The notes beneath the pieces were generated by a model. The model saw only the letters and a list, made by a program, of their open reading frames with translations, searched no databases and had not been told where the DNA came from. Below, in pieces: positions 9,165-45,862 of a stretch of DNA of 64,000 nucleotides (positions are counted from its first letter, which is position 1; every line of letters begins with the position of its first letter). Both the position numbers and the translations under genes were made by a program. Source of the DNA: Deltaproteobacteria bacterium (GTDB lineage Bacteria; Bdellovibrionota_C; UBA2361; SZUA-149; JADZAE01); contig JADZAE010000052.1 in NCBI GenBank assembly GCA_020852715.1, positions 1-64,000 of the forward strand. Direction: 5' to 3'.

Positions 9165-9350
9165 ACAAAAATCAACTTCGCTGAGTTTGCTATCATCGTT
9201 TAGCAGCCAGATGAAAATCTCCCCATCTATTGAAGAAATTTATCCATGCTATTACTCTGAGCAGGTATTTTCAAACCTAGATTCTACTATAGTTAAACAG
9301 ATTTCCGGGTGAGGACGATAAAGGTTTTTGAGTTTTCTCTTTTTGAGAGA

Positions 9351-9390
9351 AGTGCAACGCTCAGGCGTAGTAATGCTTGAGCGCTGCACT
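9351..9390 (+). promoter_or_regulatory. Hairpin in leader of the split small gene
   Basis: AGTGCAACGCTCA (9351-9363) pairs with TGAGCGCTGCACT (9378-9390) with one mismatch, around a ~14-nt loop. It ends 13 nt before the AGGAG ribosome site of the next gene, so it could be an RNA switch, attenuator or 5' stabiliser. It lacks the T run of a terminator. Confidence 0.5.
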
Positions 9391-9417
9391 TTACAGTCAG
9401 TCGAAAGGAGAAAATAA

Positions 9418-9897
9418 ATGTCGGGAACGCTGAATAGTAGAGATAGTCGGGTTTATGTCACTCGCCTAGGCGCATATTATGTAAACCTTGGAGAGGAGCA
9501 CTGTTATCCTATTCCGGGGACAGCTCGAAGGCTGGCGCCTTTAAAAATTTGCCGGACTGAGCAGCTTGATGCCCTCTTCGAAAGCCTTTGTGAGGGAAAG
9601 TCATTTGGGATGTGATGCGATAATGTGCGCCAGTATGCCATTCGACGAATGACCGGACTTGATAAAAGTGATGCGCTGGCACCGCAATTTTTGGTCCAGA
9701 CGCCACAAGGCTGGAATGAAAACATGCGGAAGTGCTTTTTGGAGAAGCTTACCTCTTACATTGATCCTGATGGCCAACTGGAAATCAGAGTGACGGTAAG
9801 AGAAAGTCCTCAGCAAGAGGGTCTGCTCGCTTTTCTTAAAAAGTTTTGCAAATCTAAGCGGCGACTGACATTGCCTCTAGTCAGTTTTGCAAACTAA
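9418..9897 (+). CDS. Hypothetical protein interrupted by an in-frame TGA
   Basis: Two open segments (65 and ~93 codons) lie in the same frame, separated only by one TGA at 9613-9615. The reading is ...EGKSFGM-stop-CDNVRQYAIRRMTG.... Protein-like composition continues without a break. Translation of the first part is well supported (AAAGGAG, 6 nt, ATG); the second part has only a GTG at 9625 without a good ribosome site. A single G-to-A change from TGG would explain the stop. Readthrough or two separate mini-genes are the alternatives. No selenocysteine-type stem-loop is obvious after the TGA. No recognisable domain. Confidence 0.5.
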
Positions 9898-17448: not shown

Positions 17449-17475
17449 TTCCGCACTCCTGCTAATCTCGTTTAA

Positions 17476-17491
17476 GCCCTATATATTGTGG
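17476..17491 (-). promoter_or_regulatory. NrdR box 1 (proximal), nrdJ
   Basis: Sixteen bp matching the NrdR consensus at about 13 positions, including an intact TATATAT core and GTG arm. It lies 28 bp upstream of the nrdJ start. Confidence 0.8.
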
Positions 17492-17506
17492 CATCAGCTG
17501 GATAAG

Positions 17507-17522
17507 CTACGATATATAGTAT
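17507..17522 (-). promoter_or_regulatory. NrdR box 2 (distal), nrdJ
   Basis: Sixteen bp with an ATATATA core and about 12 consensus matches, centred 31 bp from box 1. This repeats the three-turn pairing seen at nrdD (32 bp). Confidence 0.78.
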
Positions 17523-17595
17523 CTCCTTTCAAGGAAGTATTTCTATCTTTAGGTTGGGGATAAGTATCGTATGGGCCTGAATGGCAGGCTAAACA

Positions 17596-17638
17596 CCTAA
17601 TGATATTAGGTAATAATTATTTTTCTTAACATTACCTA
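17596..17638. repeat. AT-rich palindromes upstream of nrdJ
   Basis: CCTAAT-GAT-ATTAGG (17596-17610) is a perfect short palindrome. TAGGTAAT (17607-17614) and ATTACCTA (17631-17638) form a second, overlapping inverted repeat. They could be operators or a weak hairpin between the nrdJ control region and the downstream terminator. Confidence 0.4.
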
Positions 17639-17668
17639 GTATTTTACCGCTTATATATTCAAAAGAAT

Positions 17669-17691
17669 ATAAAAAGGGGCTAAAAAGCCCC
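17669..17691 (-). terminator. Terminator of the 58-residue gene (intact copy)
   Basis: On the minus strand, GGGGC-TTTTTA-GCCCC is followed by TTTTT. This is a good intrinsic terminator for the small gene at 17768-17944. Confidence 0.7.
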
Positions 17692-17777
17692 AAAAAATAA
17701 CCTAATCATAGTCCCTTTTGCGTTCAATCGCTGATGCCTGGCTAAAAAGCCCCAAAAAATAACCTAATCATAGTCCC
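17678..17777. repeat. 38-bp direct repeat, 62-bp period
   Basis: A 38-bp sequence occurs identically at 17678-17715 and 17740-17777. It covers the last bases and stop of the small minus-strand gene plus the first arm of its terminator. The outer copy has the full hairpin (GGGGC/GCCCC); the inner copy has lost the second arm. It looks like a recent tandem duplication of about 62 bp. Confidence 0.9.
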
Positions 17778-17944
17778 CCATCGTCAGGACCTTCGAAGAG
17801 CCAAAACCATGCGTCTTCCCGCTTCGGTCCGCAACCACATGGCCTTGTTGTAGATAAGGATTGCCCACACTCCGGACACTGGATAAGCATAAGCACCTGC
17901 TTCCCAACCAAAACTTCGGTTCCATCATCGGTATCTGGTCTCAT
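17768..17944 (-). CDS. 58-residue cysteine-rich (zinc-ribbon-like) protein
   Basis: A short frame starting MRPDTDDGTE and ending EGPDDGGL, with CPECG (~23-27) and CGCG (~36-39), spaced like the two knuckles of a zinc ribbon. AAAATGGGAG lies ~10 nt upstream of the ATG. It is followed by the duplicated 38-bp repeat and an intrinsic terminator on the same strand, which supports it as a real transcript. Function unknown; the acidic flanks and single zinc site suggest a small adaptor. Confidence 0.6.
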   Translation of the reverse strand: MRPDTDDGTEVLVGKQVLMLIQCPECGQSLSTTRPCGCGPKREDAWFWLFEGPDDGGL

Positions 17945-18131
17945 TCGAAATATGCTCCCATTTTCTAAAACTATTAGGTAGCCAAGCTCCCCATACTAAA
18001 ACCTCGGAAGGTACCAAATAACAAAATCCCTAATTTAAGGCAATAAACATCAGTAAAATTATCCTAAAGGCGATCCATTATGATTCCGATAATAGTCTCG
18101 TGGCTATTTTTAAGCATTCAGGGGGGCACTT

Positions 18132-38874: not shown

Positions 38875-39519
38875 GATCTATCCTTGCTATTGCTATATCA
38901 TCACATTTTTATGTTCAACATAATCGCATGGTCGTTGCATAAAAACAACTGTGTATCTTTCAGTGAAATATTGATTTGTGCGGATCGCAAAGAGAGGAAT
39001 GAATTCTTCCTTAAGCATAATCTACACTAATCAACTAGTGTTTTAGTTCTCGTAATCTTATTGCAGTGTAACCGTTCACGACTTTTACTGAGTTTCTATT
39101 CAAAAGCCCCCAGAGGGAGCAAGTTTTGCGAAGCAAAACTATGGGGAGACGAAGACTAAGCTTTCACAAGATTAGTCGTTTCCGATTAGGAAACGTCAAT
39201 AAATAATTGTAAATGTTCATATTTGTAATACTTCCGGAACGCTATTAGTAATAATCGGTGAAGGCTTACATTGCAGCCTATAAAATAATTATTACTGCAT
39301 AAATTAAGATACTTCTCGTAATTACTTCAAAAAGGATTTTATAGTTCTGGTTCACTACTTTATATATTTTCTGCTTTAGAATAAAGAATAGCGCTCTCAA
39401 GTGATGTTTGGTAACCCTACACAAATCCATGACGATGTGGTTAGCATGTTTCAGTTAAGTTACTTGCTGTGTTATAAACGTTTGAAAAATTTTAAATTAT
39501 TTGCCCTCGAAGGGTTACG
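38875..39519. other. Long intergenic region, divergent, with hairpin element
   Basis: About 645 bases between divergent genes. Apart from the structured element at 39107-39195 it is AT-rich without a supported gene. A ribosome site (GAAGGG) precedes the permease ATG. Promoters for both flanks should be here, but none is clear. Confidence 0.4.
39107..39195. repeat. Triple-hairpin palindromic element
   Basis: Three consecutive stems. (1) AGTTTTGC-GAA-GCAAAACT (39122-39140), closed further out by CCCCA (39108-39112) and TGGGG (39142-39146). (2) GACTAA (39154-39159) with TTAGTC (39172-39177). (3) CGTTTCC-GATTA-GGAAACG (39177-39195). The compact design looks like a dispersed palindromic repeat or a small RNA. 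No second copy is in this window. Confidence 0.6.
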
Positions 39520-42452: not shown

Positions 42453-43967
42453 CTAGCGATAGAATTGTATTAGTTCACGCAAACGGTATTGGGTATCATT
42501 TACTTCACCGTTACCCGCCAACGATTCATCATAATGTATATTCCCCGCACCATTTAATAATAAGCGTTTAGCCAATATTGCTCCGTTAAAGTCAAATGTT
42601 CCGCTTTCCGAAAGCGAGGCATTCGGGGCGACTAAACCAGCATTCATCGAGGCATTGCCGTCAAGGGTCAGCGTATTCGAACCCAAATAAAACATGCGAA
42701 AGTTAAATGGACGACCCGAATTTATTGTTTGGTTACCATTAAATTTATCTCCAACTATACTATTCACATATAAAGTTACTACGCCACCGGCGGGGTTAGG
42801 CTGAACATCGAATTGCGAATTACTATTATTCTTAAGTTCGAGGATGTTAAAATAATAAGGGTAATTGGTGGAGGAGAGAATAATTTTGGAGTTATTTTGC
42901 ACTGTAACTTTATTTCAGCACTTTTGCGCTGGAGCACTTCCGGCTACGGTTAGGTTTACCACTCCGAGGTCTCCTTGATTAACCGGACAATAAACATTCC
43001 AAGCACTAAATTGCTCAAGCAGGGGTACTCCACAGTCTTCTCTTGAGCACTTTTCTCCTTTATTCTCACAGCCTGCCGCAAAATCCGCACATACAGCACC
43101 ACCAAAGGGGCTTTCCTCGTTTATGTCCCCATTTGTTTTTAAAGTTCCGTAAACTACTTCGCCTTTATGAATCTGCGCCGTTGAGTTAGACGCTACAGAA
43201 CAGTTTGCTTTTCGAGCACCAGCAACATAAACGCCTGTTGTGGAATCATAGGAATCACACTGTTGTCTTAGTTCTAAATGATCTCTCCGTAAACCCTGTA
43301 GTCAAACACGTGATTCAGATTTGCAATAACCGTTCCATAAACATAAACACCTCTGTCATTATCAATTAGAGAGTCCACTTGATAGACAGGGTTAAAATCG
43401 GTTTGCGGGGTAGCCGCCGGAGGAGCACCAAAATCCAGATTAGCCTTCTCCGGTATGGCATCAACTAGGGTAATACGCACCCAAGCATTGCCCAAGTCGG
43501 CAGCAGCAAAGTTAGCTTACGCAGGAAAAATAACATTGGTTGGCAAATCTCTGGTAATGGGAAAAGCTGGAGTTGCTAGATCTGTGTTATTGGTAATAAT
43601 TGCCGAATTATTTGTACCTGCCAATTTAAGCTTGGTAGCTACTTTATTAATAGCTAAATCATTAGCACCATAGCTGGGCTCCGTTTTTGTAAAACGAGTA
43701 TAAAATTCATCTCGCTTGAAGGGTGTGGCCAAACTTTGAGAATGCTCTCTTAACCAAGAAAGCGCGCGATCAATCCCGTCGTCGGCATCATAAAATTGTT
43801 CATTCCTAATCTCTGTTGTTTTCACTGTCCGGGCGTTAGCTGTAATCAATGTCAAACTTCCACTAATTGCTAACGGCGACATAATCATCAAAATCATCAC
43901 CCCCGACCAAAGCGTAGCCATGGTTTAAACTAAGATCATCTTGGTTATTTAGCTTTAATCTTAACAT
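42453..43967 (-). pseudogene. Decayed PilX-like minor pilin with beta-rich C-terminal domain
   Basis: The start at 43967 (GGGAG, 8 nt, ATG) opens MLRLKLNNQDDLSLN, a prepilin-like leader. A frameshift near 43925 moves to the frame with a membrane helix (GVMILMIMSPLAISGSLTLI) and FYDADDGIDRALSWL. An in-frame TAA follows at 43517. A frameshift near 43285 joins the frame HLELRQQCDSYDS...GVYVAGARKANCSV, then a TGA near 42905. The frame resumes to 42453 with a long beta-solenoid-like part (LDGNASMNAGLVAPNASLSE). At least four lesions, so not functional. Such proteins are tip or minor components of type IV pili or related systems. Confidence 0.8.
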
Positions 43968-43999
43968 GTCGGCATCTCCCGGTGTTTGTAAAATCTTAA

Positions 44000-44455
44000 T
44001 TACGACCTATTCATAACTAAGTTTCGAATTACCACTTCCTGTTGCGCTTCTGTTGAATATTTTTCTTTGCTACGTAAAAGTTTTTCCGACTCCACTCGCA
44101 CAGGAACAAGGATACTGGCAAGATTGTCTCGAATAATATCTGGGGTTAATGGTAAAGCAATTTTATTACCGGCCGTGTCAAAGTATTTTAAAATGAATGT
44201 CGCATTGCGACCCAGGCGAATCCCACTTACTTCATCCCAGCGGGTAATGTCTTTCCACCAGGGGTTATCATTGGAAAACATATGGACTGTTCTAACGCGA
44301 TGAATAGTAGCCCCGATATCAGACAAAGCTCCTGCTAAACAATATATAGTCTGAAGCAAGGCGAATTGTGTTACCCGAAACGCTCTCTACTCGACCTTGC
44401 AATCCATTCTTTCCCCCTGCCATAGCATCTGAAAGAGAAATTATAATTCACAAAA
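44000..44455 (-). pseudogene. Truncated PilW-like gene remnant
   Basis: Only the 3' part of a pilin-like gene remains. From about 44455 the frame reads SLSDAMAGGKNGLQGRVESVSGNTIRLASDY. After a one-base shift near 44350 it continues AGALSDIGATIHRVRTVHMF...VVIRNLVMNRS to 44000. The prepilin leader and hydrophobic helix that should precede are missing; a TGA lies just before. It ends 33 bp before the PilX-like pseudogene, so the two once formed an operon. The upstream break coincides with a 12-bp inverted repeat. Confidence 0.7.
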
Positions 44456-44474
44456 TTGCTAATTCGCTCTTTGC

Positions 44475-44531
44475 TAATTTCCAATACAGAAAAGTGACTT
44501 AATGCTTTTTAATCCTCTCTATTGGAAATTA
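44475..44531. repeat. 12-bp perfect inverted repeat
   Basis: TAATTTCCAATA (44475-44486) and TATTGGAAATTA (44520-44531) with a 33-nt spacer. It lies just upstream of the truncated PilW-like gene and may mark the break point of a deletion or insertion. Confidence 0.7.
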
Positions 44532-44912
44532 TTGCTCTTGTGACAGATTATAGTTTTTAACCTATAATATTCCCCCAGTATCTAATCATCATTTAGGGGT
44601 AGTAACTTGATAATTTCGCTCTACTATTACTTATAGAATATGGCTGTAATTTCAGTTCTTTAGGATTATTAAGACAATTAGTTTAGGCTAGTGGAATTTC
44701 ATAGATCAAAGTCACTAATTGTTGACCAAATTATAATATGACTGTGTAAGCAGTTAGTTATTAGTAACTTAGGCAAGTATACAATAAGTAAAGCTTTTAG
44801 GCGGAGCGCCCTTGACTTTGTTATAGTTTTACTGTAGGTCGCACGAAACATTTTGCTGACCTGTTCAGTAATACCTAAGTGTTTAACCGACAAAAATTTA
44901 TTTGGTAGATGA
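44532..44912. other. AT-rich gap without supported gene
   Basis: About 380 bases between the inverted repeat and the structured RNA candidate. One 64-codon frame on the minus strand has no ribosome site and poor composition. No RNA gene or clear repeat seen; probably decayed sequence. Confidence 0.4.
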
Positions 44913-45200
44913 GTATAATAACCCCACGCTACAGGTTATCATCTGTGGCGTGGAGTGAAATTCTAGCGTTTTAATATTTTTTTAGACTATCCCCCTCTCG
45001 AGAATTGGAATTCAGCAGCCAGTCTCGAGTTTTCGTTGAACGGGGTGGCACGCCTTTCACTCTCCCCCGAGAGGTCCCCACGTGTCCACCCCGTTCGCTG
45101 ATCATCTTTATAGGGTAGAGTATTCCCCCACCTCCACCCTATACTTCTTTGATCTTGAGTCGTGAGGTTATTGATTTATGTTGTAAGTTTCACTCCATAT
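44913..45200. ncRNA. Candidate structured RNA of unknown class
   Basis: A perfect -10 box TATAAT (44913-44918, plus strand) is followed at the expected start point by an 11-bp stem (CCACGCTACAG 44924-44934 with CTGTGGCGTGG 44943-44953). TGGAGTGAAA (44951-44960) pairs perfectly with TTTCACTCCA (45188-45197). Between these lie three hairpins: CTCGAGA/TCTCGAG (44997-45034); GAACGGGGTGG.CACG/CGTGTCCACCCCGTTC (45038-45095); and TATAGGGT/ACCCTATA with GATCA/TGATC outside it (45100-45155). A T-rich run follows. No tRNA, tmRNA, RNase P or SRP signature. A very long yajQ leader is the alternative. Strand not certain. Confidence 0.45.
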
Positions 45201-45376
45201 CTTTGTTTCTTTTTGTTTTATTCTTTTTCCCCTTTCGTTTTATGTTTCTTACCTTGCTCTCATTGCTTTAAGCGAATGGATTTATTAACCAAGATACGCC
45301 TCCATAGTAGACATAGTTTGCTATTGAATGTTACATTAACGCCTTGACGTAACAAAAAAAGTTTCCCGGAGGAATT

Positions 45377-45862
45377 ATGCCATCATTTGATGTTGTATCG
45401 CGAGTTGATATGCAAGAAGTAGACAATGCTGTTAATCAGACGAAAAAAGAGATCAACGGACGATATGATTTTCGCAATAGCAAAAGCAAAGTAGAACTAG
45501 AAAAAGAGGCTATTACTATCACCGCCGATGATGACATGAAATTAAAAGCCATTCAGGAAATACTCTCACAAAAAATTGCCAAACGTGGTGTTGGCGTTAG
45601 AGCACTGGATTTCAAGGAAGCCGAAAAAGCAACAGGCATGATGCTTAAACAAAAAGTGATGATCAAACAAGGCATCTCGCAAGATGATGGAAAAGCTATT
45701 GTAAAACTGATCAAAGAAGCTGGTCTAAAGAAGATCCAAGCGCAAATTCAACAAGATCAGGTTAGAATTACAGGACCTAAAAAAGATGATTTACAGGAGG
45801 TAATCAAGCTGCTACGAGAAAAGGTGAAGTTGGAATTGCAGTTTGTGAATATGAAAGATTAA
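45377..45862 (+). CDS. yajQ: YajQ-family nucleotide-binding protein
   Basis: A 161-residue protein matching YajQ from end to end: MPSFDVVSRVDMQEVDNAVNQ at the start, EINGRYDFRNSKS, KRGVGVRALDFKEAEKATGM and KIQAQIQQDQVRITGPKKDDLQ. Two ferredoxin-like domains. Some homologues bind cyclic di-GMP and act with transcription factors; others bind tRNA or GTP in vitro. Excellent ribosome site (GGAGG, 5 nt). It is 20 bp before the hemerythrin gene, probably co-transcribed. The cyclic di-GMP role would suit an organism rich in exopolysaccharide genes. Confidence 0.93.
   Translation: MPSFDVVSRVDMQEVDNAVNQTKKEINGRYDFRNSKSKVELEKEAITITADDDMKLKAIQEILSQKIAKRGVGVRALDFKEAEKATGMMLKQKVMIKQGISQDDGKAIVKLIKEAGLKKIQAQIQQDQVRITGPKKDDLQEVIKLLREKVKLELQFVNMKD

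Follow-up and report, generated by a model that had tools for sequence, protein, structure and literature searches.

The window, i.e., the whole 64-kb stretch of DNA that was analysed, contains a gap of 1,017 bases (44360-45376) with broken minus-strand genes on one side and the plus-strand gene yajQ on the other. The broken genes, at 42453-44400, are remnants of a DUF7305 gene and its neighbours disrupted by stops and frameshifts, and are either pseudogenes or assembly errors. Inside the gap lies a strongly folded element in the orientation of yajQ, and no gene separates the two (Table 1). No coding content was found in the element, none of its frames giving a Pfam match, and neither a tRNA nor a tmRNA was detected in it. 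In the literature on yajQ leaders, one Pelagibacter intergenic region adjoining yajQ is listed without a named motif (PMC2704228).

Architecture and expression signals of the element

On the plus strand, 44926-45197 was predicted to fold at -106.7 kcal/mol, with an 11-bp hairpin at its 5' end and, after it, a closing stem (overall 44952-44988 paired with 45158-45196) around three hairpins. The first-pass annotation had described a TATAAT box, an 11-bp hairpin, a 10-bp helix and three enclosed hairpins, and all of these pieces are present where it placed them. The perfect 10-bp helix (44951-44960 with 45188-45197) exists; in the minimum-energy fold, base 44951 is given to the 5' hairpin, and the closing helix is instead formed by 44952-44962 and 45186-45196, with more pairs inside. 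An alternative helix, 44917-44928/45161-45172, was considered and rejected, since its plus-strand fold reaches -92.5 kcal/mol compared with -106.8 kcal/mol; at a cost of about 14 kcal/mol, switching between the two folds is unlikely. Closer to yajQ, a CCTCC/GGAGG helix, predicted to form independently of the folded element, could possibly hide the yajQ ribosome site.

The promoter claimed for the TATAAT box is weak. No acceptable -35 hexamer accompanies this box, which is one of four plus-strand TATAAT words in the 1-kb gap and is therefore at chance level as a promoter. Two further promoter-like sites are given in Table 1, and the number of such sites equals that in shuffled sequences. A scan for intrinsic terminators scored none, though a U-rich tract trails the closing helix.

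Table 1. Features of the yajQ upstream region and copies of a MITE-like repeat (positions in the window unless another stretch of the genome is named)
Feature	Position	Strand	Remarks
Promoter-like site GTGACA-17-TATAAT	44540-44568		better than the 44914 site
TATAAT hexamer	44914-44919	+	no -35; weak promoter candidate
5' hairpin	44926-44936/44941-44951	+	11 bp, 4-nt loop; predicted fold
Closing helix, 5' arm GGAGTGAAATT	44952-44962	+	predicted fold
Inner closing stem, 5' side	44964-44988	+	four short helices to 45158-45183; G-U pairs used
Hairpin 1 in junction	44997-45029	+	CTCGAGA stem, 7+4 bp; predicted fold
Hairpin 2	45037-45097	+	12+4 bp outer stem, inner 5-bp hairpin; pair probability about 1
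Hairpin 3	45100-45154	+	on 5-bp base; stem 45109-45120/45132-45143 (hairpin 45109-45143); predicted fold
Inner closing stem, 3' side	45158-45183	+	predicted fold
Closing helix, 3' arm AGTTTCACTCC	45186-45196	+	predicted fold
Pyrimidine/U-rich tail	45198-45256	+	after closing helix; no intrinsic terminator scored
Possible occlusion of yajQ ribosome site	CCTCC 45299-45303 region with GGAGG 45368-45372	+	pair probability 0.85
Promoter-like site with TG	45308-45337		nearer yajQ
yajQ (DUF520)	45377-45862	+	Pfam PF04461, E 1.2e-58; next gene downstream of element
MITE-like copies	39068-39268; L154 4932-5151; L158 1812-2008, 5845-5936; L152 11290-11453; L156 12000-12197; L150 13159-13358

Fold strength and strand asymmetry

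The fold of 44913-45260 (-106.8 kcal/mol) has a z of -7.6, and none of 100 shuffled sequences folded as well. In a ranking of 510 segments of the 64 kb, each 250 nt long, the element came first (z -8.3) and its complement second (-6.5), followed by the next region at -4.6. A sample of 58 intergenic regions, taken from the window and from ten further parts of the genome (about 200 kb), was also topped by the element (z -8.1), with others reaching -7.5, -6.5 and -5.3. The mean intergenic z in this sample is -0.96, which points to intergenic folding as a general trait of the genome, and the other strong intergenic folds, some of them repeats, make a strong fold alone less special here. Likewise, a perfect 10-bp inverted repeat is unremarkable alone, given that 25% of shuffled gaps contain at least one. 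With the inner hairpins given, however, the outer arms beat all of 200 arm shuffles on the plus strand, with a mean gain of 12.3 kcal/mol, compared with 197 of 200 on the minus strand (3 as good; mean gain 5.3 kcal/mol).

Two other folds were observed in the window. An orphan fold at 9290-9550, without an Rfam match, has z values of -6.1 (plus strand) and -3.7 (complement) and is perhaps a second structured RNA. The gap at 17449-18131, upstream of a minus-strand ribonucleotide reductase gene, contains a roughly 40-nt direct repeat (GGCTAAAAAGCCCCAAAAAATAACCTAATCATAGTCCC) and a fold with z -4.6.

The two strands of the element differ in other respects as well. For 44926-45197, z is -9.05 on the plus strand and -6.38 on the complement, and G-U pairs make up 12 of the 90 pairs in the best plus-strand structure versus 3 of 73 in the best complement structure. 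As a yardstick, each of eight 6S RNAs from relatives has its better z on the strand of the RNA itself, whereas the asymmetry of seven copies of a MITE-like repeat from the same genome averages near zero, with no consistent side. Three of these seven copies reach -1.2 to -1.6, compared with -1.4 to -2.7 for the element, and its asymmetry is therefore suggestive only. To that extent, the strand comparison favours a plus-strand RNA that would be read towards yajQ.

Known RNA classes, relatives and mobile elements

Rfam 15 gave no family at gathering score and nothing credible to E=10; the best of the five sub-threshold matches (E<=10) scored 19.4 bits, where the threshold is 45, and lies outside the element. 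Together with two order-specific 6S models that found no 6S and a genome search that found no retron reverse transcriptase, this upholds the proposal that the element fits no known class. The word GGGGTGGCAC resembles the T-box word; the element differs from a T-box leader in having no Rfam T-box match to E=10, yajQ as the downstream gene and no scored terminator. A replication origin was rejected, the GC skew not turning at the element.

The element is present in a single copy: blastn (to E=10), a pattern search and a covariance model (R1, built from this one sequence) detected no second copy in its own genome. No homologue was found by blastn in relatives of the order or in 46 genomes of the phylum, and across 288 genomes the covariance model returned only the element itself plus two weak single-hairpin matches of 23-33 nt. 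The blastn comparisons were with relatives at the level of order and phylum, and no genome of the same family or genus was among those compared. Among 80 yajQ loci, no similar sequence was seen upstream of yajQ in relatives; in those of the order, the DNA there carries other content, in many cases an opposite-strand gene that we take from its sequence to be nuoC. Plasmids gave no homologue, nor did phages, in which one 26-nt AT-rich match (E 0.09) was taken as chance. Two exact patterns searched in IMG/VR gave two 16-mer matches that are without the structure.

Which known kind of element could nevertheless lie behind this fold? In its layout it resembles a retron msr-msd RNA, with a long closing a1/a2 end helix, TAGC just after the first arm, and short then long hairpins. 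However, no match to RVT_1 (PF00078) at E up to 1 was found in the genome, which is 92% complete and includes the window, although control genomes were positive; by membership, therefore, the element is not a retron. With yajQ rather than a reverse transcriptase as the next gene, and with no Rfam retron match, a retron RNA left without its reverse transcriptase is highly improbable. A relocated and diverged 6S RNA of this lineage deserves even less credence. In its favour, of 15 genomes examined from the order, the element's own among them, 11 carry a 6S RNA, whereas none was found in the own genome. However, order-specific model R2 scores nothing, and model R3, run without filters, yields nothing above noise (no more than 2.8 bits over the element and 4.4 in the gap). 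The conserved 6S core words are absent from the element, which is a three-hairpin junction and not a rod with a central bubble.

The 6S RNAs of the order (L125, L126, L127, L130-L134 and L143-L145) are divergent, falling below the Rfam gathering score, and in many of the order genomes they adjoin a pyruvate dehydrogenase E1 gene. Upstream of this gene, the usual 6S place in most relatives, no 6S was found in the own genome. The corresponding place, a hairpin-rich gap of 765 nt before the E1 gene (L150 16159-16922, equal to L149 700-1464), has a fold with z -6.5.

Two readings without an RNA product carry more weight. According to one, the element is a DNA-level hairpin, a worn single-copy relic of a MITE or of an IS200/IS605-type element with its ends at the perfect 10-bp inverted repeats. 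Broken genes adjoin the element, which is absent in relatives, and its own genome holds both a Y1 transposase gene and an intergenic, MITE-like repeat, some 200 nt long and with inverted repeats TAAGCCTTCAC/GTGAAGGCTTA, in about seven copies (82-97% identical) in the 262 kb sampled. The element and this family have an intergenic position, a length of about 200 nt, inverted ends and good folding in common; the family differs in being unrelated in sequence, multi-copy and of no consistent strand preference. Moreover, the genome holds no second or partial copy of the element, its end pairing is better on one strand, and its flanks (GGCG versus TATC) show no target-site duplication. A transposon end, which the first-pass annotation had itself named as a counter-explanation, is accordingly not supported, and such a relic is fairly unlikely, if the most serious of the alternatives. 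According to the other, the element has no function and is one extreme among the generally hairpin-rich intergenic regions of this genome. The strong folds elsewhere in the intergenic sample, its mean z and the lack of detected conservation are in keeping with this, and the adjoining broken genes count against an RNA, since non-functional sequence is expected beside them. However, the element still tops the sample, and its outer arms pair better than chance when the interior is fixed, chiefly on the plus strand; lack of function is thus also rather unlikely. The Y1 (IS200-like) transposase gene lies at L156 1475-2794 and looks like a REP-associated transposase; the adjacent gap holds a strong hairpin (GGCGAAGCTAAGTA.../...TACTTAGCTTCGCC).

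A putative structured RNA upstream of yajQ

The orphan structured element is genuine: its fold, the significance of that fold, its occurrence as one copy and the asymmetry between its strands are all shown. An RNA role is considered likelier than a DNA role, and a plus-strand RNA is favoured by the asymmetry in G-U pairs, z and outer arms. The reading preferred here, at somewhat under an even chance, is a putative lineage-specific structured RNA of the plus strand, about 270-290 nt long (about 44926-45197 plus the U-rich tail), acting as an sRNA or a yajQ leader. Such an RNA would be transcribed towards yajQ. As a free-standing sRNA, it would have its ends joined and shielded by the long closing helix; alternatively, it could be the 5' half of an extended yajQ leader, in which the local CCTCC/GGAGG helix may hide the ribosome site. 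Within an RNA role, these two options are about equally likely.

The first-pass annotation had put the element forward as a candidate for an undescribed RNA. The significant fold, the lack of a known class and the plus-strand asymmetry sustain that proposal, while the weak promoter, the lack of a homologue and the other strong folds of the genome weaken it; an undescribed RNA stands as a candidate. An undescribed RNA class, represented to date by one lineage with no family-level relatives among the genomes compared, and marked by an 11-bp hairpin at the 5' end before a junction of three hairpins on a long, G-U-containing closing stem, is unlikely. Like the orphan intergenic RNA candidates of comparative bacterial scans, the element combines a long intergenic region with a significant fold and no known family; unlike them, since they come with alignments and covariation, it is known from one sequence.

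Should the element prove not to be transcribed or conserved, it would be a caution that fold energy alone should not mark an RNA gene where strong intergenic folds are common, as they are here. Transcription and conservation, if established, would instead make it a new structured RNA, from a lineage whose 6S RNA falls under the Rfam threshold. Overall, since even 6S scores below that threshold, known RNA families may in that case badly under-cover this group of bacteria.
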